A stretch of 64,000 bases of DNA. Origin: Bacteroidota bacterium (lineage in GTDB: Bacteria > Bacteroidota > Bacteroidia > UKL13-3). The notes beneath the pieces are model-generated. The model saw only the letters and a list, made by a program, of their open reading frames with translations, was not told where the DNA came from and searched no databases. The translations under genes were made by a program, and so were the position numbers. The stretch lies in assembly GCA_040388375.1 (NCBI GenBank), contig JAZKBU010000019.1, positions 1 to 64,000 on the forward strand. The letters are read 5' to 3'. Numbering within the stretch: the stretch's first letter is position 1; each line of letters starts with the position of its first letter. Shown here one piece after another: positions 7,702 through 25,891 of the stretch.

Positions 7702-9648
7702 TTATTTTTTGTAGTCGGTTTTTAAAACCCTGAAAGTTGTTCGTCTGTTTTGTTGGTGTTGCTCTTCTGTACAATCTACATCGTCAGCACAGTCATTTAC
7801 CAGTTTTGTTTCTCCATATCCAACAGCTACTAGTCTGTCTTTAGCTATACCTTTTGCCAGTAAATAGTTTACACAGCTTTGTGCTCTTTTCTTAGATAGT
7901 TCTAAGTTGTAATCTGCCGGGGCACGACTATCCGTATGTGAGCCGATTTCTATGGTTATGCTCGGATTATTTCTTAGAATAATGGCCAATGAATCTAGTA
8001 TTACTTTTGATTCAGGACGCAAATCGTATTTATCTACATCGTACAAAATGCCTTGTAAGGTAAAATCAACTTCGGGCGCAGGAATGGGATCTAAATAAAT
8101 AGTTAGTTCCAATAATGAATCTTTTTGTAAACCCAAGCTTGAAATATCAATAGGTGTGCTGGCAAAATAACTTGCTTTGGTAACCAATAATTGTTGTATA
8201 GCATTGAGTGGTATTTCGCCTGTAAATTCGCCTTTATCGTTGGTTGCAATAGTGAAAATATTGCTTCCTTTTTCGCTGGTTAGGGTTACATTGGCTTTGC
8301 TTAATAAAGTGCTGCTTTCCCTATCAAAAACTTTTCCTTTTACTAAAAATACAAATGGTTTAATGCTGATGGTGTATATATCATCATCGCCCATTCCGTT
8401 TATTCTGTTAGAGCTATAAAAAGCAATAGGCTTTTCAGGTTTTTGTTGCCATTTTGGAATAAAGCTGATACCAAAATCATCACCACCGCTGTTAATGGGA
8501 TATTGTAAGTTAACGGGTGTTTTGTAGGTGGTTGATGAATCTGTGGTTTTAAAAATATCTAAGCCACCTAATCCAATTTTGCCTTTAGTTGAATAATAGA
8601 GTTCATTATCCTCACTGATGTAAGGAAACATATCATCTTCTATGGTGTTAATTTGCGGGCCTAAGTTTTTGGGTGTTAACCAAACGGCTTTTACTTCATC
8701 AAACTGGCTTACATAAATATCTTTTTCTCCAAAGCCGTTGGGCATATCGCTGGCAAAATAAAGCTTCTTGCCATCAGCACTTATGCTTGGGTGCCCGCAG
8801 CTAAAACTATCAGAATTAAATGGCAATAAAGTGGGTTGACTCCATAATCCATTTTGTTTATAGCTAACATATATTTTGCAGTTTATTCCTTTTCCATCTA
8901 TACCGTTACACTGTGTAAAATACATGGTATTACCTGTTGTATCGGTACATGAAGCGCCATCGTTATAGTTACTGTTAACTTTTCCGTTTACATTGTTGGG
9001 TTTGGTACTAACGCTGTTGTTATAATCTACTTCAAAAATGTCACACATTTTTTGCCCTGTCCATTCAAAAATAAGCGAGCCTTGGCTTTCTTTTCTACTT
9101 GAACTCCAAAACAATTTTCCATTGCTATAAAAAGGAGCGTAATCGCTAAACTCTGTGTTTATCTCTTTAATCGGGGTAATATTAAATTTTTGAGGATTGG
9201 CTTTCCATTGTTGCGCAATAGCACACGACTGAAATGCTACCTGCGCTTTTTTATCATCAGGTACTTCAAATAAATAATCGTAAAAAGTTCTGTTGGCATC
9301 ATCGTAACGCTCAAAGTATTTTAGTAAATTACCATAGCTGTATAAAATGCTTGGGTCCGGATATTTTGAGTTGATTGCATCTTCAAACCATTTGATAGCC
9401 TGGTTATAATTATTGCTTAACCGGTAGCTTTCCGCAATCATAAAAAGTACATTTTGCTTCAAAGTATCTACTTTAATTTTGGGGTATACTTTTTTAAATA
9501 AATTGGCTGCAGTATTGTATTTTTTTGCATTGAAAGCCTTGTTCGCATTATCAAGTTCAAACTGATATGGGGGTATTCCTTGTTGTGCAAAAACAAAGTA
9601 AGCAGGTAAGCAGGTTAATACAATTAATATGAGTTTTTTTAGTGGCAT
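7702..9648 (-). CDS. PorE-like OmpA-family protein (TPR, beta-propeller, regulatory-like domain, OmpA)
   Basis: A signal peptide (PLKKLILIVLTCLPAYFVFA) precedes, in order: TPR helices (about 25-140), PD40/WD40-like propeller repeats (about 175-420, with repeats such as SADGKKLYFASD and ISEDNELYYST), a carboxypeptidase-regulatory-like beta domain (about 430-520), and an OmpA peptidoglycan-binding domain at the C-terminus with HTDSRAPADYN and LSKKRAQSCVNYL. This order is that of PorE, a T9SS-associated periplasmic protein of Porphyromonas gingivalis, and of many Bacteroidota paralogues. No lipobox Cys is seen. A TTG at 9675 would add nine residues, but it lies inside the promoter -7 box, so the ATG at 9648 is chosen. 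Confidence 0.85.
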   Translation of the reverse strand: MPLKKLILIVLTCLPAYFVFAQQGIPPYQFELDNANKAFNAKKYNTAANLFKKVYPKIKVDTLKQNVLFMIAESYRLSNNYNQAIKWFEDAINSKYPDPSILYSYGNLLKYFERYDDANRTFYDYLFEVPDDKKAQVAFQSCAIAQQWKANPQKFNITPIKEINTEFSDYAPFYSNGKLFWSSSRKESQGSLIFEWTGQKMCDIFEVDYNNSVSTKPNNVNGKVNSNYNDGASCTDTTGNTMYFTQCNGIDGKGINCKIYVSYKQNGLWSQPTLLPFNSDSFSCGHPSISADGKKLYFASDMPNGFGEKDIYVSQFDEVKAVWLTPKNLGPQINTIEDDMFPYISEDNELYYSTKGKIGLGGLDIFKTTDSSTTYKTPVNLQYPINSGGDDFGISFIPKWQQKPEKPIAFYSSNRINGMGDDDIYTISIKPFVFLVKGKVFDRESSTLLSKANVTLTSEKGSNIFTIATNDKGEFTGEIPLNAIQQLLVTKASYFASTPIDISSLGLQKDSLLELTIYLDPIPAPEVDFTLQGILYDVDKYDLRPESKVILDSLAIILRNNPSITIEIGSHTDSRAPADYNLELSKKRAQSCVNYLLAKGIAKDRLVAVGYGETKLVNDCADDVDCTEEQHQQNRRTTFRVLKTDYKK

Positions 9649-9672
9649 GAATAAATTATTCTGTACTGTTTT

Positions 9673-9702
9673 CAAATATACTTAAGGTTATTGGCAATAC
9701 AA
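9673..9702 (-). promoter_or_regulatory. Bacteroidetes-type promoter of the PorE-like gene
   Basis: On the minus strand TATATTTG (9680-9673) matches the TAnnTTTG -7 consensus exactly. A TTG (9702-9700) lies 19 bp upstream, the expected -33 spacing. Transcription should begin about 15-20 bases before the ATG at 9648. Confidence 0.7.
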
Positions 9703-11656: not shown

Positions 11657-12490
11657 ATGGGTAATTATAAAGTGTTTGACGTAACGTGTACTGCTGAGTT
11701 AAAGGATATAATAATAGCCGAGTTAGGCGATATAAATTTTGAAGGATTTGTAGAAAAAGAGAACGGCTTTGAAGCCTATATTGATGAAGCGTTATTTAGC
11801 AATGAGGACTTTATTGCGGTTTTAAATAAGTATAGTATTGGTGATACTGATTATTCAGAAAATAATATACCTCAACAAAACTGGAATGCACAATGGGAAA
11901 GCAGTTTTGAACCGGTTATTATCAGCAACCAATTAATTATTAAGGCTCCATTCCATGTTATTGAAGAAATGTATTCCTATCAAATAATCATTCAACCTAA
12001 AACGTCATTTGGTACAGGCCACCATGAAACAACGCAAAGTATTATGGAGCTGATGTTGCAAATGGATTTTAAAGACAAATCGGTTTTTGATTATGGTTGC
12101 GGCACAGGCGTACTATCTATTTTAGCCAGCAAGCTAGAGGCTGATTATATTTTTGCAAACGATATTGATGACTGGGCTTTTGAAAACGTAGGTGAAAATG
12201 CACAGTATAATAACATAACAAATATTGAATATATGAAAGGCGATTTAAGTGTAGTGCCTGATAAGCAGTTTGATATAATTTTAGCCAATATTAATAAAAA
12301 CATTTTATTGAAAAGCTTTGAGCAGCTTAGTAAGCATTGTAAGGAAAACGGAATAGTAATGATAAGTGGTTTTTTTGAAACCGATTTGAATGACTTATTA
12401 GCGGTTAGTGAAAAGTATAATTTGATATTGCAAAAAACTACTGTTTGTAATGGTTGGTGTGCAGCCGTATTACAAAAAAAGAGTAGTTAA
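11657..12490 (+). CDS. prmA: Ribosomal protein L11 methyltransferase
   Basis: The 277-residue product matches PrmA in length and layout: a small N-terminal substrate-recognition domain, then a class I SAM methyltransferase domain. It shows FGTGHHETTQ, motif I DYGCGTGVLSI, NDIDDWA, and ILANINKNIL in place of the NPPY-type motif. PrmA trimethylates ribosomal protein L11 in the cytoplasm. It begins 4 bases after the ClC gene and overlaps the last 4 bases of the convergent barrel gene. Confidence 0.93.
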   Translation: MGNYKVFDVTCTAELKDIIIAELGDINFEGFVEKENGFEAYIDEALFSNEDFIAVLNKYSIGDTDYSENNIPQQNWNAQWESSFEPVIISNQLIIKAPFHVIEEMYSYQIIIQPKTSFGTGHHETTQSIMELMLQMDFKDKSVFDYGCGTGVLSILASKLEADYIFANDIDDWAFENVGENAQYNNITNIEYMKGDLSVVPDKQFDIILANINKNILLKSFEQLSKHCKENGIVMISGFFETDLNDLLAVSEKYNLILQKTTVCNGWCAAVLQKKSS

Positions 12491-14565
12491 AAGGCTATTT
12501 GTAGCTGAGTAATTATATCACTTTGCGTGTTACCGTCAATTTGTTCTAAGCCACTTCCAATGCTATTTACATTACTGTATTTGGTTTGGGCGTAACGTAA
12601 AAACAGTTTTATGTTTTTTACTATTTGGTATTTGTATACAATGTAAAAGCGAGTACCACTATTTTGATACAATGGCACACTAAAGGTATAAGGTACATTG
12701 TCTTCATAAGCATAAATTCTTGCATAATAATTATCAATGCTAAATTGACTGAGTCGTGCATTGACAGACATTTTATTTTTACAAAACTTATACTTTAAAC
12801 CTTGAAAAATGAGGAAACCATTACTTTGGTTTACGTTGGCTGTATTGAACATACTGAATTCAATACGGCTTTCCGATTCCATCAATAAGCTGATTTTGTA
12901 ATTGACATGAAAACGCAATTGTTGCTTTTCTTGGGCCGCTAACACATCGTTTAAATCGTTGTTGTTATTTAACTTGTTATGCTCTTTGTTTTCATACCTA
13001 TACCTGATGTACATACTTGTTGGCTTGTTAGGTGTGTATTGCCATTCCGTTAATATATCATAACCTTTACTAGGTGCGTCAACCTGATAGCGTAACCAAC
13101 TTGATTTATAAAAATCAATATAGGCATTAAATGTAATGCTTTTGCGTGGTTTAAATGAAAGCCCTGTATAAAATCCTCCTTCATTTCTACCATCATTGTT
13201 CTCAGCAAAAGGGTTGTTAAAAGTTGTTTGGTAAGCACGGCTAAAGTTTCGGTAAAGAAAACATAAATCTAATTTTGCATCAACCGGTACCAGTAAAGTA
13301 TGAGTAGTGGCCAAAGCATTATTATCACTTATGGAAACCTCACCCAGTAATAATGTGTTCGCTATATTTAATCTGTAGTCAGCACCTAGGTTGAGTAATT
13401 CATTTCCTGCAAAATTATATTTTTGGTATAAGTCATCACCTTTTAGTAAAGGAGCACTGTAGTTTGTTTTTACTGTAGTTAAACCAATTTGTAATTGCTT
13501 ATATGTTTTTTGTACATGCAAACCAATTATAGTTTGGTTTACATTGTCTTTATCTGCTATTTCATTGTTGGTTCTATGTAATCCTGTTAAATTAAAACTG
13601 GTAAATCCGTCAAATGAATTATACGAAGTATCGGCATTTGTAAAATTAGTATTGATAGCTTTGAAGGAAATAAAAGGAACCACTTGCCAGTTTTTGTATT
13701 CATATACACATGATAATCCGCGTAAAAATTCAAATTCATTAATACTTCTATATGGCCTTATTACCTGAAAGTTTCGTGTAGTGTTTAATACAAAAGCCGA
13801 TTTCCTTGCCGATAAGCCACTTCCAAAAGTTAAACCTTGTCCAAAATTAGCCTGATAATCGCCTAATATAATTTGGGTGAAATGGCCAACGTTCCGAACT
13901 TGTATAAATCCTGAATTAAAGTCGTAACCTGATTTTTGATTTCCCTGAAAAAACTGCTCACCCGCATCTTTTTCGCCAGTATAACCAATGGTAATTCGTT
14001 TGCCAATTTGTTGTTTAAACCTTAACACAGTTCGGTAAGGAGAACCTAAATAGTATTGCCTGTTTTGGGCTTTTAGCAAGGCTGTTTTGAAACCTAACCT
14101 TTCCTCAATATCTCTATCCGTTTGTAATATAATTTCTGTTTTGCCAAGTTGCGAAAGCTCGCTTAGTTTTAACTGTTTGTTGTTTTCATTTACAAAGCAA
14201 AAATATTTTAACAACTGTAAGTTTTCATCGCTTAAGTTAGCCACCGCTTGCAACTCATATATGCTTTCAAAATCGCCATACAATTTACGGTGATTTAATA
14301 GTGCAATAATTTCGCTGTGCTTTAAAAATATAAGTTGTTGCAGCTCGTACTCGTTTGTTTGGTTTAGGTTTATTTTGTTGTCAAAATAATATTCAAGCTG
14401 AGCTTGTAAATCGGTATAATCAATTTTTGATTCATCGTTTTCAATCAGCTTTTCAATGACTATAGCAATCACTTCATTTTTTTGTTTTTGCGCTATCAAA
14501 CTCTTGTTGAACAGGAGCAGGCAACATGAAACTAAAACAAGAAGTTTATAATAATTAGTCTGCAT
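12487..14565 (-). CDS. Helix-hairpin-helix protein with outer-membrane beta-barrel
   Basis: After a signal peptide (MQTNYYKLLVLVSCCLLLF..LIAQ) comes a ComEA-like helix-hairpin-helix region (about 55-115; INLNQTNEYELQQLIFLKH, then YGDFESIYELQAV). The remaining 550 residues alternate amphipathic beta strands with aromatic girdles and end in an aromatic-terminated strand (TQLQIAF), typical of an outer-membrane barrel. Proteins of this type recur in Bacteroidota, but I know no established function; the helix-hairpin-helix may bind peptide or DNA in the periplasm. The ATG at 14565 is preferred over the TTG at 14580. It overlaps the end of the upstream barrel gene by 11 bases, so translational coupling is likely. 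Confidence 0.75.
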   Translation of the reverse strand: MQTNYYKLLVLVSCCLLLFNKSLIAQKQKNEVIAIVIEKLIENDESKIDYTDLQAQLEYYFDNKINLNQTNEYELQQLIFLKHSEIIALLNHRKLYGDFESIYELQAVANLSDENLQLLKYFCFVNENNKQLKLSELSQLGKTEIILQTDRDIEERLGFKTALLKAQNRQYYLGSPYRTVLRFKQQIGKRITIGYTGEKDAGEQFFQGNQKSGYDFNSGFIQVRNVGHFTQIILGDYQANFGQGLTFGSGLSARKSAFVLNTTRNFQVIRPYRSINEFEFLRGLSCVYEYKNWQVVPFISFKAINTNFTNADTSYNSFDGFTSFNLTGLHRTNNEIADKDNVNQTIIGLHVQKTYKQLQIGLTTVKTNYSAPLLKGDDLYQKYNFAGNELLNLGADYRLNIANTLLLGEVSISDNNALATTHTLLVPVDAKLDLCFLYRNFSRAYQTTFNNPFAENNDGRNEGGFYTGLSFKPRKSITFNAYIDFYKSSWLRYQVDAPSKGYDILTEWQYTPNKPTSMYIRYRYENKEHNKLNNNNDLNDVLAAQEKQQLRFHVNYKISLLMESESRIEFSMFNTANVNQSNGFLIFQGLKYKFCKNKMSVNARLSQFSIDNYYARIYAYEDNVPYTFSVPLYQNSGTRFYIVYKYQIVKNIKLFLRYAQTKYSNVNSIGSGLEQIDGNTQSDIITQLQIAF

Positions 14566-15364
14566 GAAATATAAGCCCAACGTGAGGAGTAAAACCTAAG
14601 TAGCTGTGCAAACTGGTAGCACAGTTGAAATCAAATTGTTTAAACTTGGCAGTGAAGCCACAAGTAAAATAATTGGGGTTACTGGCATAACCAATTTGTA
14701 ATCCAAAGTTTTGATGTATATCGTAGCTTAATCCACTTCTTACTACTATATCATAATCAAAAATTTTCTCTATATCAGTTAACAAAAACAGTTTGGTATT
14801 AATGCTATACTTTACCCCGAACTTGGCTAAGTTTGGAACTTTGCCATAAGTATTATTGCTATACTTTGATTGGGTAATATTTGAAAGGAAAAATCCAATT
14901 TGCAGTTGTTTATTTATTTTATAAAATGAACCTACATCGGCTGTAAATGCGTAAGTGTTTTCTTGCTCAGCTATGTTTAAAGCTACATAGTTAAGGTTAA
15001 CACCTAAGCTGAAATTGTTGTTTAGTTTTTTTGCAAAGCCAAGTGTAATTTTCTGCTGGTTAAATTTTTCATAACCATAATGATTGGCTGCTATACCTAT
15101 ATTAATCCATTTGGTTGGTAGCGCTACACTGGTATTGATTATGTTTAAATTTTTTAAGCCAAAGCGCAGTTGATTATAAACGCCAATTTCTATTTTCTGA
15201 ATTTCGGTTAAGGTGGCAATATTGTTGTTAGTTGAAAATACATTTGTTTCTGCGGTATTACTTCCGCCCATAGCCCATGCCTTTGCACCTATTGGTTCAA
15301 ATATAGGTTGGCTATATCCAAATGAAAACAGTATAAGGAATGTATATAAAAAGGCTATTTTCAT
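14555..15364 (-). CDS. PorV/PorQ-like outer-membrane beta-barrel protein
   Basis: The 269-residue protein has a signal peptide (MKIAFLYTFLILFSFGYSQ). The mature N-terminus PIGAKAWAMGGSNTAE is followed by NNIATL, resembling the AMGGa..a..dn.aal start of PorV/PorQ/FadL-like barrels. Repeated amphipathic strands follow. PorV-type barrels act in T9SS as shuttles or anchors for cargo at the outer membrane. The gene lies between a type B cargo gene and a second barrel gene, all on the minus strand, which fits an outer-membrane partner role. It could equally be a generic FadL-like barrel. Confidence 0.65.
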   Translation of the reverse strand: MKIAFLYTFLILFSFGYSQPIFEPIGAKAWAMGGSNTAETNVFSTNNNIATLTEIQKIEIGVYNQLRFGLKNLNIINTSVALPTKWINIGIAANHYGYEKFNQQKITLGFAKKLNNNFSLGVNLNYVALNIAEQENTYAFTADVGSFYKINKQLQIGFFLSNITQSKYSNNTYGKVPNLAKFGVKYSINTKLFLLTDIEKIFDYDIVVRSGLSYDIHQNFGLQIGYASNPNYFTCGFTAKFKQFDFNCATSLHSYLGFTPHVGLIFHAD

Positions 15365-15452: not shown

Positions 15453-18218
15453 TTAGCGTAATAAGGTAACAGTGCCGTGTAGTTCTTTTTTTGTGTTGTT
15501 CAGTTTTTTGAAACTGGCAATATAAAAATAAACACCATCGGTGGCATTTGTTCCGTTGCTATCTTTTCCGTCCCATTTAAAATTTGCACTGGAACTCTTG
15601 TACATTTCTTGCCCCCACCTGTTGTATATGGTTACTTCGGCTTCATCGCAAGGAGCGGTTAATCCATCCAGTAAAAAATAATCGTTTAGCCCATCATTGT
15701 TTGGTGTAAAAGCATTAGCGGTTTTTACCTTTTTAATGTCTTCGGTATAGGCAACAGTAATTTTTGTAGAATCAGCACACGAGGTTAAACGGTTAATTGT
15801 TAGGCTAATGTCTTTATTGTTTACTTTATCAATAGGCAGAATGGGGTTTTGTTCAGTGCTTGTTTCCCCATTGGGAAATTGCCAAAAATAAGAAAAAACG
15901 TTTTCTGTTAAGCAGTTAAATTTTATACTGGCAGCGCAAGTATCAATGGTAAAGCCTATTTGCACTTGTTTAAAACTAAACTGCATTTTAAAAGCAGCAT
16001 TGCTGCAGCGTGGGCTCACATTGGTTTTAAATACAGCATCGGAACTGGTAGGAAAATCACTTATGGTTCCTCCGACATCCGGGCAGCTGGCACAAACTGA
16101 CTGATAAATATATCCTTTTTTGTCGAATCTGCTGGTTCCCCCATCTACGTGGTCACCAGTAAGGTCTCCACCAAAAAAAGTAGCATATAATAGTTTTTGT
16201 GCGTTTAGCCCCAATACAATAATATAGAAGTCCCTGTTATCAGTATTCTTTTTGTAAGCATCGCTGGTAACGGGAAGTCCGTTTGTATTGCCAACATCGT
16301 TTACACCTCCCCAGCCGCTCATGTATAATCTTCCGCAATCGTCCAATAAAAAAGCATTGATGGTTAAGTCAATGGTGTTTCTATCAGAACCAAATTTGCT
16401 TAAAAAATTAATATTGGAAAAGTCGTTGCTTATTTTAGCAATAAATTGTTTTCCATTGGGAGTAAAGTAAACATTTCCAACGGTACTGAGTACACCATCA
16501 GTATGCCCCACTATGTATATGTTTTCATCAAGGTCTAATTCTAAACCAAATATTTGATCATATTTTTCTGTTCCAAAATATCGGGCATTGAGTATTTGGG
16601 TTCCATCTTTTTTTATTTTGGCAAAAAAACCATCTGCAATTCCTCCATTATAAGCATTTTTAGCAGTAGTTATACTCATGTCCTCAGTAGTTCCACCCGC
16701 TATAAAAATATCACCATTCGTATTTAAGTCAACACTATGAACAGCATTGTGGCTGAATCCTTGAAAAGCAGAACTAAAAAGAAGTTTACTGCAATCACTG
16801 TCAAGTTTAAATACAACACCTTTTAAAAAGTTAGGTATAACACTGCCTCCAAATGAATTGGTAGTTATAGGGAAATCAGTTGAGCGTGAACAACTGCCTA
16901 CTATAATATTATGCTCTTTGTCAACTATTACATCGCCCCTAAAATCATCAGCATAAAATTTGTGTAATGCGGTACCTTTACTATTTAAACCATCGTTTTC
17001 ACTTCCACCAATATACGTTGAAGCAAGTAATGAATCTCCATTCTTTGATAGTTTGGTAACTATAATATCCGACTTGCCTTGATGAATACTGTTATAAGCC
17101 TTTGCACTAACAGGGTAATCATCAGACTTTGTAGTGCCCATAATAACAAGGTTGTCATTATTGTCAACAATTAAACTATGCGGGGCTTCATTTAATTGCC
17201 CTCCTAAATAAGTAGCATATAAAAGCTCCTTGCCATCGCTGCGGTATTTGCTAATGGTAATATCGCTCGGCAACCCTATAGGCTCTTCTGAAGTACCTCC
17301 ACTAAAAGTAAGTTGGTATGCTCCTGGTGTTACCGGATACTGGCCTGTTCCACCTCCTGATGTAATACCTCCTGCATATAAATTGCCCTGGCTGTCATAC
17401 GTAGCAGTAAAACCAAAATTGTCTTCTGTAGAGCCGCTATAAGTGCTAAAAATTAAATCAGGGTCAATAATCAGGTTAAACTGCTTGTTGTATTCAGCTG
17501 CTTCAAAATGAATGCAATTATTTTTTAGAACGTATTTTACATCAACTATTACTTTTTTACCATTAATAAACTGGTAAGCAAAAGGCTGCTTTTCTTTAAT
17601 AAAGCCTAAGCTATGGTAAATAAATAATTCACCATATTCAATTTTATAATCAGTTGAACCTTTGTACTCCAGTTCAATATCGTTAATGTTGGCATTTGGT
17701 TTTAGTATCCAGTCAAATTTAAGCTTGGTATTTGATTCACTGCTAATGGCTAAATCAATGTTTGCGTATAAATCAGGGTAAATTATTTTTTGAAACGATT
17801 GAACCTTTGAGCGCCATTTTGCAGGATTTTTACCAATGAAATAATTGTAATAAAAATGGTTAGCCTCACCATTGGCTATGGGGTTGAGTGTTTTGTTTGC
17901 GTTGCGAAATATTAAATTAATAAAGTGTCCAGTAACAGAATTGCTACTAACTTCTGTTTTGTGTGGATGGCTGTTAAGTTTGGCTATTTGAATGGGGTCT
18001 AGTATATAATAGGAAATAGTATTTTGGTGGAGTAAAATATCTAAACTGGCACTTTTGAATTTGAACTTTATATCACTATCCCACTGACCTTTATTTTCTA
18101 TAAAGCTAATTTTACTATTCGTATTGTCAGGTAATATATTATTTTGACCCCAAGTTGGAGTTTGTACTACAAGGTAAAGGCTAGCAAATAAAAATATGTA
18201 TAAATACCTATTAAACAC
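15453..18218 (-). CDS. T9SS cargo: SBBP-repeat protein with type B C-terminal sorting domain
   Basis: The 921-residue protein has a signal peptide (ending in VQTPTWGQ). An N-terminal module opens with FIENKGQWD, which in this lineage precedes SBBP repeats. Beta-propeller-like repeats (about 260-750) carry motifs such as ATYLGG, STYIGGS and GDSLLAS. A PKD-like stretch follows (about 760-825). The C-terminal type B sorting domain (about 830-921) shows ANAFTPNNDGLND, IYNRWGQ and WDGKDSNG and ends in TVTLLR. Type B domains direct export through T9SS and surface attachment or release. The gene is divergent from the sigma-factor gene and heads a probable unit with two barrel genes. Confidence 0.9.
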   Translation of the reverse strand: MFNRYLYIFLFASLYLVVQTPTWGQNNILPDNTNSKISFIENKGQWDSDIKFKFKSASLDILLHQNTISYYILDPIQIAKLNSHPHKTEVSSNSVTGHFINLIFRNANKTLNPIANGEANHFYYNYFIGKNPAKWRSKVQSFQKIIYPDLYANIDLAISSESNTKLKFDWILKPNANINDIELEYKGSTDYKIEYGELFIYHSLGFIKEKQPFAYQFINGKKVIVDVKYVLKNNCIHFEAAEYNKQFNLIIDPDLIFSTYSGSTEDNFGFTATYDSQGNLYAGGITSGGGTGQYPVTPGAYQLTFSGGTSEEPIGLPSDITISKYRSDGKELLYATYLGGQLNEAPHSLIVDNNDNLVIMGTTKSDDYPVSAKAYNSIHQGKSDIIVTKLSKNGDSLLASTYIGGSENDGLNSKGTALHKFYADDFRGDVIVDKEHNIIVGSCSRSTDFPITTNSFGGSVIPNFLKGVVFKLDSDCSKLLFSSAFQGFSHNAVHSVDLNTNGDIFIAGGTTEDMSITTAKNAYNGGIADGFFAKIKKDGTQILNARYFGTEKYDQIFGLELDLDENIYIVGHTDGVLSTVGNVYFTPNGKQFIAKISNDFSNINFLSKFGSDRNTIDLTINAFLLDDCGRLYMSGWGGVNDVGNTNGLPVTSDAYKKNTDNRDFYIIVLGLNAQKLLYATFFGGDLTGDHVDGGTSRFDKKGYIYQSVCASCPDVGGTISDFPTSSDAVFKTNVSPRCSNAAFKMQFSFKQVQIGFTIDTCAASIKFNCLTENVFSYFWQFPNGETSTEQNPILPIDKVNNKDISLTINRLTSCADSTKITVAYTEDIKKVKTANAFTPNNDGLNDYFLLDGLTAPCDEAEVTIYNRWGQEMYKSSSANFKWDGKDSNGTNATDGVYFYIASFKKLNNTKKELHGTVTLLR

Positions 18219-18364
18219 GTAATTGAAAATAGTTTATTTAGCAAAGTAAGCAAAATTTAATATAAAGTGTTGGGACTAAAAGCATTTAGAAAATTTTAAG
18301 TTTTTTTATTTTAACGTGCAACTTATACTTAGGTTCATTAATCAAGCAAAAACTAATATATAAA

Positions 18365-18901
18365 GTGAGTCAGAATATAAGCCTAGAATTAATTGAAAAA
18401 TGCATGCAAGGCAATGCTAAATCGCAAAAGCAATTGTATGATGAAACAGTTAGGCAAATGTATGGTGTGTGTTTAAGGTATTGTAAAAGCCCGGAGGATG
18501 CCCGGGATGCCATGCAGGAGGGTTATATTAGGGTTTTTAGTAAAATGAAGCAGTTTGAAGGCAAAGGGGTGATAGAGGCTTGGATGAGAAGGATTTTTGT
18601 GAACTGTGCATTGGAAAGTATTAGGGTAAATAAATTTTACACCGAAACAAGTGATGTAACGGAAGCTTTTGATTTATCTTATGAAAATTTAACCATGGAT
18701 AAGATAGGGCAGAAAGAAATTATGCTGACTATGGGAAAATTAGCATTGGGTTACAGAACAGTTTTAAACTTATACGCTATAGAAGGTTACAGCCATGCAG
18801 AAATAGCTGAAATGCTTCAAATAAACGAAGGAACATCAAAAAGCCAGCTTGCCAGAGCAAGAGCGGCTTTTTTAAAGGAATATACAAAATTAACGAAGTA
18901 A
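18365..18901 (+). CDS. ECF-type RNA polymerase sigma factor
   Basis: The 178-residue protein begins at GTG and has sigma region 2 (about 20-90; AKSQKQLYDE, DARDAMQEGYIRVF) and region 4 (about 120-172; YRTVLNLYAIEGYSHAEIAEML, then EGTSKSQLARARA), with no region 1 or 3. ECF factors direct RNA polymerase to a small regulon and are usually held by a membrane anti-sigma factor encoded next to them. The next gene fits that role: it begins 15 bases downstream, in the same reading frame, through a 9-bp tandem repeat. The target promoter cannot be deduced from this window. Confidence 0.93.
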   Translation: MSQNISLELIEKCMQGNAKSQKQLYDETVRQMYGVCLRYCKSPEDARDAMQEGYIRVFSKMKQFEGKGVIEAWMRRIFVNCALESIRVNKFYTETSDVTEAFDLSYENLTMDKIGQKEIMLTMGKLALGYRTVLNLYAIEGYSHAEIAEMLQINEGTSKSQLARARAAFLKEYTKLTK

Positions 18902-18918
18902 ACGAAGTAAACGAAGTT
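18892..18918 (+). repeat. Three 9-bp tandem repeats spanning sigma stop and anti-sigma start
   Basis: AACGAAGTA AACGAAGTA AACGAAGTT occupies 18892-18918. Because the unit is nine bases, each copy reads ACG-AAG-TAA in the sigma frame, giving two in-frame TAA stops (18899-18901, 18908-18910). The third copy supplies the first two bases of the TTG start of the next gene. Confidence 0.9.
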
Positions 18919-19840
18919 GAATAATTTAGATAAAATACTTAAAGAGCAAATGGAACAATTTGCGCCAGAAGCACCCAATGTTTGGGCTGGTATAGAAACG
19001 GGTATTAAAAATAATGCAGGTTCATCAAATGCCGGTAGTGGTAACGCTGCGGCAGGCTCAAAAATTGGAATGGGAATTTTAAAAATGCTGGCTATAGCTA
19101 GTTTACCTGCAGCTTTTATAGCTTACAGTTATTTAGCAAACCCTAATACAGACAATAATCAAGCGGTTGTTACTACCCAACAGGAAATTAAAGAACAACA
19201 AGAATTAGTAAGCCAACAGCCATTGCCAGTTGAACCGACAGAAAAAGAAATTGCAACCAATAAAACTACTCCTAATAATAACAATACTAATAAAGCCAAT
19301 AAGAAACCAGCTATTATTAAAGAATTAGCTCATAATAACAATAATGAAGAGGCTTTAAACAATCAAATCAACAACCATATACAAAACCAGGAAATAAACG
19401 CTAACCCAATCAATACAAAAACGGAAGCAAAACCAAAAACAGATAATCCGCAAATTTTACAAAGCGAATTAAAAGAGGAAAGCAACCTTAATGAAGAAAT
19501 AGAATCAAGTAAAAAAGAGGAAGAGGTTGAGAAGCCAAAAGAAGAAATTGGAAAGGTTACACTTAAAAACCTTCAAAACGTTTTTACACCGAATAATGAT
19601 GGCTTGAACGATAAATATTTAGTAGAGATAGAAGGGGAGAAGTATTATAATTTAAAAATTTATAATACACAGAATGAATTGGTTTTTGAATCGAGTGATA
19701 AATTGAATAATTGGGATGGAACGAATTTTAAAACTGGGCAAGCTTGTGCTATGGGTACCTACTATGGAATATTAATTTACAAAGGTGCTGATAATGCAGA
19801 TTTAAAAACTTTAAAAACAGCTATTCAATTGATAAGATAA
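18917..19840 (+). CDS. Anti-sigma-like one-TM protein ending in a T9SS type B-like domain
   Basis: The 307-residue protein has a short cytoplasmic N-terminus (1-50; NLDKILKEQMEQF and PNVWAGIE resemble Bacteroidota transmembrane anti-sigma proteins). One membrane segment (about 52-73) follows, then a Gln/Asn/Lys/Glu-rich linker (75-215). The C-terminal domain (about 219-307) has NVFTPNNDGLND, LKIYNTQNELVFES and NWDGTNF and ends in TAIQLIR, the pattern of gliding-motility type B sorting domains. There is no cleavable signal peptide, so the domain should sit in the periplasm, tethered to the inner membrane. TTG start; the first ATG (18950) would remove the conserved N-terminus. Its position directly after the sigma gene supports an anti-sigma role, which remains inference. 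Confidence 0.8.
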   Translation: MNNLDKILKEQMEQFAPEAPNVWAGIETGIKNNAGSSNAGSGNAAAGSKIGMGILKMLAIASLPAAFIAYSYLANPNTDNNQAVVTTQQEIKEQQELVSQQPLPVEPTEKEIATNKTTPNNNNTNKANKKPAIIKELAHNNNNEEALNNQINNHIQNQEINANPINTKTEAKPKTDNPQILQSELKEESNLNEEIESSKKEEEVEKPKEEIGKVTLKNLQNVFTPNNDGLNDKYLVEIEGEKYYNLKIYNTQNELVFESSDKLNNWDGTNFKTGQACAMGTYYGILIYKGADNADLKTLKTAIQLIR

Positions 19841-19912: not shown

Positions 19913-22900
19913 ATGAAATATATGTACAACAAGTTATCTCTTTTAAAACTAAAACATCTCTATGTTTTGGTTTTTCTCTTGCTATCCAGCATTATGGCAA
20001 GAGGGCAATCAGCTTCTATAGTTATTACTCCAGCTGTTGCTTGTGCTGGTGTTGATTTAACAACGGTAGAAGTAGTTACTACCGGTATTTTACCGGCTGA
20101 TGTTGTTTCTTATACTATTCGTTGGGGACTTCCTAATGATACAGCTGTTAACAACAGAATTGCAGGCAACCCACCAAATCAGTTTTTCTTTAAAAAGTAC
20201 GCAACCGGTGGTGATTATGTAATTACCTTGGTGGTTAAAAGAACTAACGGACCAGATATAGTGGTTACGGCTAATAGAAGAATTTGGAACAGACCTGTTA
20301 CTTCATTTATATTACAGTCGCCCGATAACCAATGTTTTAAAAACAATAATTATGTTTTTAATAACACGTCTACCAGAGGAGCTGCACCTAGTGCACCTTT
20401 GGTACAAGCAGACTGGATTTTTGGAGATGGTAGTGCTGTAACGGTTACCAATATGTCGCAAAATATATTAAACCATAAATACACTTTGAATAAACCAACT
20501 TACCAGATTGGTTTAACTATTACCGATTCAGTTGGTTGTAAAACAGATCCATTAAGTGATCCATTGAGCACATTACCAATTACTATTGCTCCCGATATTA
20601 AACCTGGTTTTACCATTTCTGGTATAGCTCAGTGTGATACATCGAAATATATATATCAAAATACAACCCCTCTTCAATATTCATTTGTTGATTCATTTGT
20701 TTGGGATTATGGCGATGGAACAATGTATTATTCAGGCGTACCCGGCAAACAAACTCAAGATTTTGCGCGTTGGAATAATGCTTACCAACATCAATATATT
20801 ACTGCAGGCGTATTTTATCCTTCTTTATTTGTATACGATAAAAGATCAGGTTGTGCCGATTCGTTTTATTTTCAAACATCGGGTTTAAAATTACCTGAAA
20901 ACATTATTTACGAAATAGAAATCTTAACTAAAAGAAGCCCGGTAAACGATTCTTTAGCAGATTCAGTTTGTTTAATGGTTCCTAATGCTGCCTTTGTAAC
21001 ATTGTACAATAATTTTGCATTAGAAGGTCCGGGTGGAACACCATTAAATATTTTATGGAGTTTTAATGACCCTAACGCTAATCCTCCTGGTTCAGACAGA
21101 TTTTTAAATGTTTTCCAACCAAGATATCAATACCAAGGACTTGGTCAATATTTTCCAACCTTAACGGTTGCGTGTCCGGGAATTCCTTCTAAAACCAGAA
21201 CCTATACTTATTATTCAAAATTAGATACGCTGCCAAAAGACCCGAACCGGTATCAGTATGAAGATTTTTATGCTGCGCCAAAACCAAACGTTCCGCAGTA
21301 TGTCAATGCATTTGGGCCTAGATTAAATCCAGTATTGTATACCAGAAAGGGACGTGTTTTAACTCCTGCTTCAACACTTGATACTTTGTTTTACAATACA
21401 AATGGTCGTATTCCAAAATTCATTTACGATACAACTTATAATGCCAGCGATCCAACAGATGTAGATAAAATTGTAGGAAGGTTTGATGGCTGGGGTGATG
21501 AAATGAGTTCTGACTGGGATTTCTTCCGTAAACCGGATATGAGTTTTTTGCCTACGTTTTACGATACGCAAATGATTCAGTTTAGAAATCCACAAACCAG
21601 TACTTTAATTACCAGACCGGTTTTAACACCTTATTATAACCCAATTTCGAGAGCATTAAGATTCAAGACACTTAATGATGCAAATGTTCACGATTCATTA
21701 GAAGTATTTAAAGATAGATTGATTGGAATAGGTGTTCAAATTCAGGGGCCATTAGTAAGAATAGAAGATCCTAATACGCCTATTACTATTCTACCATGGC
21801 AAAAACTACAGTGTGGTCCAACCTTTCCTGTTCAGTTTGTAAATACATCACTTATTTACCAGTCAGACAGGTTATGGAAACGTTGGGATTTTGCTGAAGA
21901 CCAATATGCTCCCGCATGTACTTCTTATTCTTTTCCAAACCCAGTTGCTGCAAACGGAGGTTTACCACCTTATTTAAATGCGGCTGATTTACAAAACAGA
22001 ACATTAGGTGCTTTTGTTGCCAACGGAAAATCATATTTAGGTAGATTCACTTCATGTAATTTCTCTCACGATTCATTGCCAACTCGTTTATACCAAAATT
22101 GGGATGTAATTTTTGATTGGAATAAATATGGACATGATTTCCCTCCTTATGATTCTACAAGATGGACAAAAGGATATACACAATGGCCAACAAGCCAAGC
22201 TCCTCCAACCGGATTTAATTGGGTACAACCGCGCGATACTGCGGGTGGTCCTACTTGGTGGCCTTGGAATCAGCCGGTATTGGCTTCTGGTCCAACTCCA
22301 ACAAGGGTAGATACAATGTCTAATATTTGGCCAACCGATATTCAACCAAATAATGTAATAAGATTAAATAATCCAATTCCCGATCCAATTTCAAGTGCCA
22401 GAGGTAACTGGATGGATGTACTTCCGGTAGGAACCAGAATTGATAGTGGTTTATTGGTTATTAGCTTGCCAAATGCACATGATGGTAAACCGAGATCATA
22501 CAAAGGATCAGATTTATTACCAGGCACTAATATTACCTTGTATCGTTATGCATTTAACCGCCAAACAATTCAAGATATAACTGTTACTTTACAGATGAAG
22601 GATTCAATTAACAATACTTCACAAGATCCTGATTACAGAACAGTTAAAATCAAGTTTGACACTATAAAAATATATGATCCTATTACCCACACTTATACTA
22701 AGGATTCAATTATCAGAGATTCTCTTCACTTAGATGAGTGGGATTGCCATGGAGCATCAACAGTTCAGTTAAGTTTTACCCGTCCTGATGCTTTTGGTTT
22801 AAGTCAAGATGGAAAAGTTTGTCCTAATTTTAAATCAGGTTCTTCAGGTGGTGATCCACAAATTATATTGAACAGAGCCGGATATTTAGATTCAGCCAGA

Positions 22901-25891
22901 ACACAGCCTGGACCTGGTATTGTGCCAAGCAGTTCTCGTACTTTCTTAATGATTAATTACGATTCATTATTAGATAGAAACGATGGTACACCTTGCGATT
23001 TAGATAATTTCGTTGATTTTGCCGGTGGAACTACCAATGGAGGATTAACCATGCCTGGTATGTATAACAGAGTTAACTATCCTCCAACACCTGGAGGACC
23101 ATGGACTTCTCCTTCAGGAGCCAGAATGTGGGCACATTATTTCCCTAGCGGTCCAACTCCGGGTGGTATAACAAATATGCCATACAGTAGCAAAGGATGG
23201 ATTACCTTAGGTATTATAGTAGGTACAGGTTGTGCCTCTCCTACCAACTGTAATTCACCAGGTTGTTTGAGTGATACAGTTTGGTACCATAATTTCTTCC
23301 GATTTATTCAATTAAATGCAAGCTTTACCATTGAAAAATTTGCGTTTGAAGATCCTGCTAAACCTAATTTCTGTTACTTAAGAGGTAAAGGTGATACAGT
23401 TACTTTCCATTATTTTGATTCGTTACAAGACAATGTGATTGCCGATGTTTGGGATTGGGGTGATGGAACAGCAACAGTAGATTCATTCTACTACCAACCG
23501 GAAACAGATGAGCCATATAATAGAATAAGATATGAGTATAATACACAGGTATTACCTTGGCAATGTACAGATACAACCTATTATCCAATTGGTACACGCG
23601 TATTCTCACAAACAGTTAGAGATACTATTTGGAGATGTAACGACCCGTTGCATGCATTACCACCATTGCGTATAGATGTGAGAGTAATTTCACGCGATAC
23701 AAGTTTTATGCTATTACCTATTCAACATGTTTACAAACTGTCGTCATGGGAAATGCTTGTAGACGGAGGAAACGGTTTAGAACGAAGAGGAGATATTACT
23801 CCGGTATTACATAATATGATTGCGAATAATTTCTCACGTTGTGAGAACAGAGCATTGAAATATATTGTAGTAGGTATTATTGATACTTTTGATGTATTGA
23901 ATGGAGCAGGAGACCTTGATACCATATTCTGTCAGGGAGAATCCGTTTATTTTAGAGATTCAGTACGCTACTGGTATACCGCAGGAACAGGAGTTTGTTC
24001 TCGTCCATTGCAAATACCGGGCGAAAACAATGATAGATTAGATGAATTGATGGATAAATTTGGACCGGCATTGGTTAACTATCCGTCAGATACTACTAAA
24101 ATTTATCCTGATCCAACTGATTACTTTATATTAAGTGGCCCTATTCAGGTTTGCCCGCCTACACATTTTGGTGTTGCAGGAACAGATCCGGTTACCGCTG
24201 CTCCAATAACAAGATGTTATAAGTTACGTACCTATTATTATGAGCGTTTGTATTGGGATTTCGATTCCGATGGTAATTTAGATGCCGTTGGAAGCAGTGT
24301 TCCTGGCATACTTGTTAGCAATAAATACAGTGCACCGGGACGTTACAAAGTGTCGATGATTACGAGAGATAGCGTTGGTTATTGGGATACTTGTTACCGC
24401 TACGTTAACATTGTACATCCACATGCAGCTATTGAAGCAAAAGATGTATACCAATGTGGTGATGAGTATTTATTTAAAGATTCAAGTTATATTGGTGGAG
24501 CTCCTGGTTTTGATAATGTAGTAGGATGGAAATGGTGGTTTGGTGATCTTGGCTTTGCTCAAGATGCATTTAGATCAGATTTACAAAATCCTAAATACGA
24601 TTACCGTAAAAATGGTAAATATACATTGCAATTAGCAGTGAATACAGAACAAGGATGTACTGATACTATCACAAAAGACATATTTATAAGTGGCCCTCGT
24701 CCTCATTTATTTATCTTAGACGATACATTAGGTTGCGTTCCTCATAGAGTTAGGGTAGTAAGTATACCAGAAAGAGAGCCTTGGGCTAGCCCAACAGATA
24801 CACCTACTAAATTAACCATTATCCGTTCTGGTAGACCAGATAATTTAGCAATACCGGTTAAATACTCTACTGTCGATACCGTTGAGTTTATTTACGATGA
24901 GCCAGGCACATACTATATTTTTGCAGAGGCATTTGATAGTGAAACAGGTAAAGGTGTTTGTAGACCAATTACTGTACCTGATACTTTAGGAGGTTTTGAA
25001 GCACCGATAAGAATAAGAACCAATGTTCCTTATCAAGTAAATTTAGAATCTTCTAAAGATACGGTCTGTGTGGGTGAAGTATTTAAATTTACCAATAAAT
25101 CAGATAGGGATACTATTGACAGATACAGGTTAGATGTATTTAATTCAACCCTTTCAACCAGGTTAGATTCAGTATTGAAAACAGATATTAATGTAGATAC
25201 TACATGGCAGTATAAATTGAATCAAATAGGACAATATAAATTTGTATTGACTTCTACCCGATTCCAATATGGTTATGCACCATGTGCTAATACTGATACA
25301 GTAACAGTAGTAGCTTCTAAAGCTAAAGCGGACTTTACACCAACGCAAGCAGGTGAATCATCGTTCCGATTGGTTAATAACTCAGACACTGCTGTTTCTG
25401 ATAAATATACATGGAAAGTGTATAAAGCAGATGGAAGCATGTTTGATGGTTACCCTAAAGACTTTGATGATGTAAGTCCGTTAAACGATTTTACTGCTAA
25501 GTTTGACGTAGATTCATCGACCAGTTTAATGGTTTGTATCATTGCTGATGTAGCTGGTACGGTTAGTTGTCCTGATTCGGTTTGTAAGATTATTCAAATA
25601 ATTTTACCTCCAAGTAAAATCAATATTCCAAATGCGTTCTCTCCAAATGGCGATAACATAAACGATAACTTTGTAATTGAAATTGAGAATTTCCGTAAGT
25701 ATAGTTTAACTATTTGGAATCGTTGGGGTAACACCGTATTTGAAAGCGATAGTCCTACTAAAACATGGAATGGTAAAACCAATAACGATGGTGGTGAAAA
25801 CCCTTCTGGTACTTACTATTACATATTTACTTATCAATTAAAAGGTGGTCCTGAAAAAACAGTAAGGGGTTCTATCTCATTAATTAAATAA
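19913..25891 (+). CDS. Giant PKD-type T9SS cargo protein with type B sorting domain
   Basis: The 1992-residue protein has a signal peptide (YVLVFLLLSSIMARGQ). Several PKD-like domains are marked by W.(F/Y)GDG motifs: WIFGDGS, WDYGDGT, WDWGDGT and WWFGDLG. Many other Ser/Thr/Pro/Asp-rich beta segments are present, and the Cys content is unusual. The C-terminal type B sorting domain (about 1903-1992) shows IPNAFSPNGDNIND, IWNRWGNTVFES and TWNGKTNN and ends in GSISLIK. It should be exported by T9SS to the cell surface; PKD domains often mediate adhesion or polysaccharide binding. No catalytic domain is recognised. It starts 72 bases after the anti-sigma-like gene and ends at a strong terminator, so it may belong to the same unit. 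An alternative ATG lies at 19922. Confidence 0.9.
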   Translation: MKYMYNKLSLLKLKHLYVLVFLLLSSIMARGQSASIVITPAVACAGVDLTTVEVVTTGILPADVVSYTIRWGLPNDTAVNNRIAGNPPNQFFFKKYATGGDYVITLVVKRTNGPDIVVTANRRIWNRPVTSFILQSPDNQCFKNNNYVFNNTSTRGAAPSAPLVQADWIFGDGSAVTVTNMSQNILNHKYTLNKPTYQIGLTITDSVGCKTDPLSDPLSTLPITIAPDIKPGFTISGIAQCDTSKYIYQNTTPLQYSFVDSFVWDYGDGTMYYSGVPGKQTQDFARWNNAYQHQYITAGVFYPSLFVYDKRSGCADSFYFQTSGLKLPENIIYEIEILTKRSPVNDSLADSVCLMVPNAAFVTLYNNFALEGPGGTPLNILWSFNDPNANPPGSDRFLNVFQPRYQYQGLGQYFPTLTVACPGIPSKTRTYTYYSKLDTLPKDPNRYQYEDFYAAPKPNVPQYVNAFGPRLNPVLYTRKGRVLTPASTLDTLFYNTNGRIPKFIYDTTYNASDPTDVDKIVGRFDGWGDEMSSDWDFFRKPDMSFLPTFYDTQMIQFRNPQTSTLITRPVLTPYYNPISRALRFKTLNDANVHDSLEVFKDRLIGIGVQIQGPLVRIEDPNTPITILPWQKLQCGPTFPVQFVNTSLIYQSDRLWKRWDFAEDQYAPACTSYSFPNPVAANGGLPPYLNAADLQNRTLGAFVANGKSYLGRFTSCNFSHDSLPTRLYQNWDVIFDWNKYGHDFPPYDSTRWTKGYTQWPTSQAPPTGFNWVQPRDTAGGPTWWPWNQPVLASGPTPTRVDTMSNIWPTDIQPNNVIRLNNPIPDPISSARGNWMDVLPVGTRIDSGLLVISLPNAHDGKPRSYKGSDLLPGTNITLYRYAFNRQTIQDITVTLQMKDSINNTSQDPDYRTVKIKFDTIKIYDPITHTYTKDSIIRDSLHLDEWDCHGASTVQLSFTRPDAFGLSQDGKVCPNFKSGSSGGDPQIILNRAGYLDSARTQPGPGIVPSSSRTFLMINYDSLLDRNDGTPCDLDNFVDFAGGTTNGGLTMPGMYNRVNYPPTPGGPWTSPSGARMWAHYFPSGPTPGGITNMPYSSKGWITLGIIVGTGCASPTNCNSPGCLSDTVWYHNFFRFIQLNASFTIEKFAFEDPAKPNFCYLRGKGDTVTFHYFDSLQDNVIADVWDWGDGTATVDSFYYQPETDEPYNRIRYEYNTQVLPWQCTDTTYYPIGTRVFSQTVRDTIWRCNDPLHALPPLRIDVRVISRDTSFMLLPIQHVYKLSSWEMLVDGGNGLERRGDITPVLHNMIANNFSRCENRALKYIVVGIIDTFDVLNGAGDLDTIFCQGESVYFRDSVRYWYTAGTGVCSRPLQIPGENNDRLDELMDKFGPALVNYPSDTTKIYPDPTDYFILSGPIQVCPPTHFGVAGTDPVTAAPITRCYKLRTYYYERLYWDFDSDGNLDAVGSSVPGILVSNKYSAPGRYKVSMITRDSVGYWDTCYRYVNIVHPHAAIEAKDVYQCGDEYLFKDSSYIGGAPGFDNVVGWKWWFGDLGFAQDAFRSDLQNPKYDYRKNGKYTLQLAVNTEQGCTDTITKDIFISGPRPHLFILDDTLGCVPHRVRVVSIPEREPWASPTDTPTKLTIIRSGRPDNLAIPVKYSTVDTVEFIYDEPGTYYIFAEAFDSETGKGVCRPITVPDTLGGFEAPIRIRTNVPYQVNLESSKDTVCVGEVFKFTNKSDRDTIDRYRLDVFNSTLSTRLDSVLKTDINVDTTWQYKLNQIGQYKFVLTSTRFQYGYAPCANTDTVTVVASKAKADFTPTQAGESSFRLVNNSDTAVSDKYTWKVYKADGSMFDGYPKDFDDVSPLNDFTAKFDVDSSTSLMVCIIADVAGTVSCPDSVCKIIQIILPPSKINIPNAFSPNGDNINDNFVIEIENFRKYSLTIWNRWGNTVFESDSPTKTWNGKTNNDGGENPSGTYYYIFTYQLKGGPEKTVRGSISLIK

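Follow-up and report, generated by a model that had tools for sequence, protein, structure and literature searches.

A candidate Dma-like anti-sigma factor with a type IX secretion CTD-like end, encoded between an ECF sigma factor and a giant cargo protein in Bacteroidota

The window analysed here is a stretch of 64,000 nucleotides from a Bacteroidota bacterium of the UKL13-3 lineage (GenBank assembly GCA_040388375.1, contig JAZKBU010000019.1, positions 1 to 64,000), and our subject is a gene pair within it that encodes an extracytoplasmic function (ECF) sigma factor and a 307-residue protein with a single transmembrane (TM) helix and an end resembling the C-terminal domain (CTD) of type B cargo of the type IX secretion system (T9SS). 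We consider it moderately probable that the 307-residue protein is a trans-envelope, Dma-like anti-sigma factor whose CTD-like end reports T9SS or cargo status and so releases the sigma factor for cargo genes. The architecture, the conservation, the gene order, the promoter and a second target gene of this system were established from sequence.

Both open reading frames (ORFs) of the pair, their coordinates and their order, as given in a first-pass annotation of the window, were confirmed. On the plus strand the sigma gene is followed by the 307-codon gene and, after a gap of 72 bp, by a gene of 1992 codons; a gene of 921 codons lies divergently on the minus strand (Table 1). The sigma protein passed the Pfam cut-offs for both of its domains (Sigma70_r2 47.8 bits, r4_2 54.1 bits). 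The hydrophobic segment of the second protein was found at about residues 50-70, close to the helix annotated before at about 52-73, and the roughly 49 residues that precede it speak against a Sec signal peptide. Between the helix and the CTD-like domain the protein has a disordered tether, the length of which is kept among 26 orthologues whereas its sequence is not. The distance from TM helix to CTD was 144 ± 11 aa (range 125-186) in these orthologues and 209-283 aa in five more distant ones. A tether of about 145 aa would, if extended, reach across the periplasm. Longer anti-sigma-like relatives, which by eye have a further segment, PKD-like or similar, after the tether and ahead of the CTD, were seen at eight loci (L063, L069, L073, L075, L158, L169, L174 and L182).

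When the 307-residue protein was used as a query against 58 genomes, its own included, a sigma gene next to a one-TM protein with a CHU_C end was found in 10 of 10 genomes of the genus, in 19 of 25 other genomes of the family and in at least two of 23 genomes of the same class, which makes at least 31 of the 58. The class-level figure covers stretches read from four of the 23 genomes, and the six family genomes without the pair are known from the search matches; 30 of the 40 stretches fetched contained the pair and 10 did not. The conserved pairing in relatives that the first-pass annotation had called for was therefore found, and it recurs across Bacteroidota. All 9 other genomes of the genus have a full-length orthologue, 39-45% identical, next to the orthologous sigma gene, and the two genes overlap there by 4 bp; in the four relatives inspected the overlap is at TTGA, and TTG is the start codon of the anti-sigma gene in the window and in nine genus orthologues. 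The overlap has apparently been lost in the window genome. The junction there (18890-18920) contains a 9-bp repeat, ACGAAGTAA twice and then ACGAAGTTG, which results in two in-frame TAA stops and a 15-bp gap. A chance or misannotated pair was ruled out by the synteny, and a plain cargo protein with an odd signal anchor is made unlikely by the adjacency to sigma and by the N-terminal family described below. The next gene after the pair was a large ORF in 29 of 31 loci, at a gap of -8 to 74 bp; a CHU_C end was seen on 27 of these ORFs, the other two being cut off.

The N-terminal 50 or so residues of the protein would hold the ECF sigma factor in the cytoplasm. Contigs were scanned with an alignment of the sigma protein to avoid selecting by the CTD, and the best 80 loci were taken, 77 of them with a usable downstream ORF. 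Over these 77 sigma-adjacent proteins the column of Trp23 was at least 90% conserved, and the NCBIfam 'anti-sigma factor' family NF052375 matched 16 of them at E≤0.01. Folded alone, the N-terminus gave mean predicted local distance difference test scores (pLDDT) of 70, 64, 56 and 48 for successive ten-residue blocks, and when it was modelled behind sigma, shifted blocks covering residues 1-36 gave 73, 90, 93 and 80. This model (one chain, stop codons read as Gly, 13 rows) had a predicted template modelling score of 0.76, and in it the N-terminus is predicted to fold onto the sigma factor. Over nearly its whole length the sigma part fitted best to SigW of SigW-RsiW complexes (Z 14.6, root-mean-square deviation (rmsd) 4.8-4.9 over 157-158 residues) and to RpoE bound to NepR (Z 14.1), with CnrH of the CnrY complex (Z 12.2) further down; both domains of several polymerase-bound ECF sigma factors aligned only with an rmsd above 20. 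Such fits agree with a compact, inhibited sigma factor without being specific to that state. The anti-sigma-like N-terminus of the first-pass annotation is thus placed in a family of sigma-adjacent proteins and predicted to dock onto sigma. A reading in which the protein is an unrelated membrane-anchored T9SS accessory, sharing the operon by chance, could point to the window protein's N-terminus, which gave no Pfam anti-sigma match (CHU_C was the sole Pfam match of the whole protein), and to NF052375, which was found in only 1 of 26 close orthologues. It would have to account, however, for the position directly after sigma with the 4-bp overlap in 9 of 9 genus relatives, for the near-invariant Trp common to the 77 proteins, for NF052375 in 16 of them and for the predicted docking, and we regard it as very improbable.

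The scan by sigma alone also placed the protein among its relatives. At E≤0.001 the 77 downstream proteins matched OMP_b-brl_2 (24), CHU_C (17), OMP_b-brl (11) and PKD_4 (4), families that can overlap. The window's own genome has 17 sigma70_r2 matches, and four of its sigma genes (L080, L087, L088 and L090) are followed by a protein which by eye has a short N-terminus, one TM helix, a long tether and a barrel-like end; two of the four pass the OMP_b-brl_2 cut-off and all four are cut at the end of the locus. The anti-sigma factors of the Dma family are described, in the available part of the source, as consisting of a sigma-binding end, one TM helix, a disordered tether and an outer-membrane barrel (PMC13088901). 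Since partners in the own genome and in the sigma group show this published layout, the proteins ending in a CTD (the CTD type) are best seen as Dma-like anti-sigma factors with another outer end. They share with the Dma family the N-terminal sigma-binding region (here predicted), the single helix, the long tether, a C-terminal domain at the outer membrane, the adjoining ECF sigma gene and the Bacteroidota host (PMC13088901, as far as available). The sigma factor adjoining Dma proteins is of the ECF21 group; in the present scan the sigma group of the window pair also has partners with a barrel end. Unlike in Dma proteins, a T9SS CTD-like domain takes the place of the C-terminal beta-barrel, and the best-supported targets are T9SS cargo, whereas Dma1 and Dma2 were studied, in what the source makes available, for vesicles and glycan-use genes (PMC13088901). 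The first-pass annotation knew of no published description, and this holds in part: the basic layout is known from the Dma family, but no report of a T9SS CTD replacing the barrel, or of an anti-sigma factor with a T9SS CTD, was found among the titles and abstract openings searched, and the founding Dma paper may mention one. The finding suggests that Dma-type anti-sigma factors are perhaps modular as a class, with an exchangeable outer-membrane end.

The CTD-like end, residues 219-307, had been annotated as a type B domain. This was upheld by CHU_C (PF13585), which matched residues 219-292 with 52.6 bits against a cut-off of 27, but not by the cut-off of the type B model TIGR04131, to which we return below. 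At E≤0.01 TIGR04131 matched 26 of 26 aligned orthologues, the window protein included; CHU_C was likewise present in all 26 close orthologues, none of which matched a barrel family at E≤0.001. The cargo hallmarks FTPNNDG.ND, W.G, G.Y and the final L.R are retained. The tryptophan of the cargo motif NRWG, by contrast, was present in 66 of 66 retained cargo CTDs and in none of 45 anti-sigma CTDs, when aligned. The cargo set had been reduced by six rows (four partial matches and two type-A-like tails) and extended by five from sigma-selected loci, with the QWG and RWE rows retained. When the loci were read one by one, RWG was seen in 63 of 67 other CHU_C ends and in 0 of 31 anti-sigma ends, the four misses among cargo being QWG (L067), RWE (L053) and two type-A-like tails. 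At 14 further loci selected by sigma alone it was seen in none of the 14 anti-sigma ends and in 5 of 5 neighbouring cargo ends (four loci), and within the own genome in 7 of 7 other CHU_C ends fetched, with 12 other matches listed. Because the tryptophan separates 66 of 66 cargo CTDs from 0 of 45 anti-sigma CTDs, the latter form a distinct relative of cargo CTDs that is probably non-secretable. The first-pass proposal of a plain mimic of cargo has to be given up on this count and on the missed TIGR04131 cut-off.

In the predicted fold the RWG site lies after strand 241-249 and before strand 255-259. Five conserved motifs were described in the type B CTD of SprB, each needed for secretion and three of them on strands (Paillat et al., PMC12618676, available part), and RWG would presumably be part of one of the five. 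Compared with type B cargo, the protein has a homologous C-terminal domain with most conserved positions kept (PMC12618676 and PMC9143113, both as far as available). It differs in having an internal TM helix rather than a signal peptide at its start, in the missing NRWG tryptophan (45 of 45) and the unmet TIGR04131 cut-off, and in that the domain sits on a probable regulator. These differences bear on the possibility that the domain is truly exported by the T9SS, so that the chain would span both membranes and its surface end would read an outside ligand or force, like a barrel-type Dma protein or an RsgI-type surface sensor. A tether of this length would be long enough for the periplasm if extended, and those partners of the same sigma group that carry a barrel would have their ends in the outer membrane. 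Against export stand the 45 anti-sigma CTDs without the cargo tryptophan and the secretion requirement for every one of the five motifs, to which RWG would belong (PMC12618676, available part), and we consider export quite unlikely.

The predicted CTD superposes on the NucA CTD of a T9SS complex (8glk; 73 of 75 residues, Z 8.3, rmsd 2.2) and on other substrate CTDs of such complexes (8gl8, Z 7.7; 8gl6, Z 7.5). GhpA, a grappling hook protein (9flp), was the sole solved chain matched by sequence, at a place close to its end (E 3.3e-07), and a Foldseek search with the model of the full protein gave zero PDB matches at E≤0.001. Exactly one cysteine per whole protein was present in 24 of 31 anti-sigma proteins, in one of them (L059) at a position other than that of Cys277, the only cysteine of the window protein. 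An intermolecular disulfide through this residue is conceivable, an idea prompted by the available part of PMC12635249. It has to be set against the 67 cargo CTDs, in which a cysteine occurred at column 34 (23 CTDs), at column 81, that of Cys277 (22), or at neither (22) and never at both, so that a lone cysteine at the same column is found in 22 of 67 cargo CTDs as well. A tree of CTDs in which the anti-sigma CTDs were forced into one group was not worse than the free tree (approximately unbiased test, p-AU 0.626). The sigma tree required 7 label changes for the CTD type (6 without unlabelled rows), at least 2 of them forced; six near-identical genus rows, the duplicates L117 and L120, and L172, which has no downstream ORF, had been omitted from it. 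The sigma tree would suit repeated gain of the CTD, and a single anti-sigma clade is not rejected by the CTD tree.

The output of the sigma factor was approached through its promoter. The pattern GCAAC-N18-ATC is found 5' of sigma in 29 of 31 loci, against 0.26 of 31 expected from shuffles, with N17 in L067 and an N18-GTC variant in L051 (by eye); in L053, L054 and L062 the sigma start was called too far upstream, hence the site lies inside the called ORF. The window sigma gene is the only one of the 17 sigma70_r2 genes of its genome with this pattern. A copy of its own was not found before the giant cargo gene of the window, nor was one found anywhere in the window on the strand of the divergent cargo gene, where the aligned upstream regions show by eye a TACTTTG element, which we take to resemble the housekeeping -7 element of Bacteroidota. 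In the ten genus genomes the exact-spacing pattern gave 77 matches versus 35 for the reversed control, and the own operon was matched in 10 of 10. Ten of the 77 are thus the operon itself, and 15 stretches, two of them from the own genome and together part of the rest, were followed. Among these only a site before a type A cargo gene was both conserved in the genus and placed as a promoter. The gene (G000:C4:359368-360060, L228:2069-2761) encodes a 230-aa protein with a type A sorting domain (TIGR04183, 52.7 bits, cut-off 23), a small T9SS cargo protein of unknown function. Its full-length orthologues were found in 13 of 35 genomes searched (9 of 10 in the genus, four in other genera), and GCAAC-N18-[AG]TC lies at most 200 bp upstream in 11 of the 13, against 0.014 of 13 in shuffles.

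The own genome has 11 exact-spacing matches, three of which are placed as promoters, before the sigma operon and two type A cargo genes. The second of these, G000:C6:18204-19073 (L240:2105-2974, minus strand; TIGR04183 42.9 bits), has an exact GCAAC-N18-ATC just upstream and appears species-specific, no orthologue having been found in another genus genome at E≤1e-20 (1 of 10 genomes). A large regulon was rejected, since the looser pattern TGCAACY-N16..18-HATCH gave 22 matches in the own genome and 21 in the backwards control. Among the other sites followed, one that G003, G004 and G006 have in common falls within an ORF of 422-424 aa, about 400 bp before the next ORF; those of L237, L238 and L242 lie opposite ORFs of 276-300 codons; and those of L239 (145 bp before a 946-aa ORF), L240 and L241 occur in one genome each. 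Because the promoter is found on a second, type A cargo gene and a giant type B cargo gene lies within the apparent sigma operon, the output of the sigma factor is probably T9SS cargo. The feedback circuit that had been proposed with both flanking cargo genes survives for one of them only. Both do encode type B cargo with CHU_C and pass TIGR04131 (Table 1), the giant cargo gene is in the apparent operon and the second promoter target is T9SS cargo too, which gives a circuit around T9SS cargo good grounds, but the divergent gene has a housekeeping-like promoter and is a neighbour that is probably not a target.

A link to the T9SS is also seen in the distribution of the system. Genes for SprA (2485.6 bits) and for three proteins of PorP/SprF type are present in the own genome. 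SprA was searched for in the genomes of 45 of the 80 sigma-selected loci and was present in 15 of 15 genomes with CTD-type partners, in 13 of 20 with long-type partners (at least 340 aa without a CTD; mostly of barrel type, though the class is one of length and no proof of a barrel) and in 10 of 10 with short-type partners. CTD-type partners occurred only in SprA-bearing genomes (15 tested), and for the CTD type compared with the long type the association had a Fisher p of 0.012. Since sigma, its probable inhibitor and cargo share an apparent operon, the second target is cargo, and a T9SS-type end sits on a long tether, the simplest reading is that the CTD-like domain reports T9SS or cargo status, and T9SS status is likely the input to sigma. 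The N-terminal 50 or so residues would bind sigma in the cytoplasm, the single helix would anchor the protein in the inner membrane, and the tether of about 145 residues would let the CTD reach the outer membrane. There the CTD homologue without the NRWG hairpin, most likely a non-exported dummy cargo tag, could dock with, or be tugged by, the outer-membrane machinery of the T9SS or a cargo CTD, and thereby report whether the T9SS accepts cargo or is clogged. A change of state would free sigma through proteolysis or a conformational change, and the freed sigma would direct transcription of its own operon, the giant type B cargo gene with it, and of one or more unlinked type A cargo genes. Engagement of the tag might either free sigma or hold it. 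That the NRWG tryptophan is systematically absent suggests a tag that is gripped but not passed on. A closed loop, in which the grip on the disabled tag, or competition by real cargo, sets the transcription of real cargo, is a version of this proposal that we hold tentatively and think rather less than even in probability.

Several observations weigh against the proposal. Contact of the CTD-like domain with T9SS parts is a prediction, and the association with SprA weakened to p 0.077 when the CTD type was compared with all others. The TIGR04131 score of the anti-sigma protein was 30.7 bits, below the cut-off of 35, and Ig-like domains of streptococcal peptidases exceed the T9SS substrate CTDs in fold score, with Z up to 10.1; Z values of this size for a predicted model can reflect just a common arrangement. 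If RWG lies within a secretion motif, recognition by the shuttle may have been lost altogether (PMC12618676, available part). Adjacency to cargo is not universal, as only 4 of the 14 loci selected by sigma have a CTD cargo gene next; at 8 no such gene was seen, and at the other 2 the next ORF is cut off. The promoter is missing at the second target in G008, which reads GTAAC, and in G015. In the phylum-wide set (78 loci) a similar promoter was found before 15 of 17 sigma genes of the CTD type, 17 of 29 of the long type and 14 of 32 of the short type, and since all three types show it, it characterises the sigma group as a whole. With regard to docking, the sigma fit is not specific, given the good fit of free SigG1 (Z 13.3, rmsd 4.0) and the poorer ones of SigK-RskA (rmsd 7.7) and BldN-RsbN (rmsd 12.1). 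Part of this evidence would suit a real anti-sigma factor whose CTD-like domain is an Ig-like sensor or anchor for another outer-membrane, peptidoglycan or surface ligand, with no reading of the T9SS. The absent tryptophan in 45 of 45, the TIGR04131 shortfall, the higher-scoring non-T9SS Ig-like folds, the 8 of 14 loci with no cargo gene seen after the pair and the additional PKD-type segment of certain relatives (PKD_4 in 4 of 77) all fall on its side. An Ig-like sensor would, however, leave the other cargo hallmarks, the matches of 26 of 26 orthologues to TIGR04131 and CHU_C, the occurrence of the CTD type only alongside SprA, and the T9SS cargo among the best-supported sigma targets to be explained otherwise, and we judge it unlikely, though less so than export.

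The finding bears on the question of how cargo production is matched to T9SS capacity in Bacteroidota. In Porphyromonas gingivalis PorA is a separate surface protein with a CTD, proposed to act through a two-component system, and its authors state that other factors should mediate between PorA and the inner-membrane kinase (PMC7712824, available part). The two systems are alike in that a CTD-bearing protein influences a T9SS-related ECF sigma factor, in that case through PorXY-SigP; unlike in PorA, the CTD is here part of a TM-anchored anti-sigma-like chain encoded beside sigma. The link from PorA to SigP is the only published one that we found, and in the available text it lacks a physical connection across the envelope (PMC7712824). 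Here the T9SS-type domain and the probable sigma-binding segment are joined in a single chain, and the promoter, operon and second target are defined, which makes the question testable. If the proposal of a CTD-ended anti-sigma factor is true, the cell may have in it a way to match cargo production to its secretion machine.

Table 1. Coordinates of the sigma/anti-sigma locus and its features in the window
Feature	Position	Strand	Evidence
ECF-type promoter TGCAACT-N16-AATCA (GCAAC-N18-ATC) of the sigma/anti-sigma/cargo operon	18317..18344	+	
ECF sigma factor, 178 aa	18365..18901	+	PF04542 and PF08281 above cut-off; 34-81% identity to 27 orthologues
Dma-like anti-sigma factor (best reading) with T9SS CTD-like end, 307 aa	18917..19840	+	
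Putative cytoplasmic sigma-binding segment, residues 1-49, near-invariant Trp23	18917..19063	+	Probable; conservation, pLDDT
Single transmembrane helix, about residues 50-70	19064..19126	+	Best 19-residue Kyte-Doolittle window 1.90 at residue 50
Disordered N/E/K/Q/P-rich tether, residues 74-218	19136..19570	+	pLDDT mostly <50
T9SS CTD-like domain, residues 219-307 (89 residues)	19571..19837	+	CHU_C 52.6 bits; pLDDT about 90-97
Residues 251-253 (TQN), position of RWG in cargo CTDs	19667..19675	+	
Cys277, only cysteine of the protein	19745..19747	+	Cys at column 81 in 27/31 anti-sigma proteins
PKD-containing giant T9SS type B cargo, encoded third in the apparent operon	19913..25891	+	CHU_C 82.5 bits, TIGR04131 49.3 bits
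Divergent T9SS type B cargo (DUF7948 + SBBP + CHU_C)	15453..18218	-	CHU_C present; passes TIGR04131 at 49.6 bits

Further genes of the window were noted on the minus strand. Directly after the divergent type B cargo gene lies a gene for a PorV/PorQ-family-like outer-membrane protein (14555-15364; NF033709 55.9 bits, below the cut-off of 90), which could be a dedicated shuttle for the divergent cargo; 7 of 9 genus stretches show the same order of the two genes, and the remaining two are cut off. The gene that comes next (12487-14580) has a weak helix-hairpin-helix match. An OmpA-type protein (7702-9675) is close to the PorE (442.7 bits) and CHU_0125 (431.4 bits) families, below the cut-off of each, and is possibly a further T9SS-linked gene in the window.

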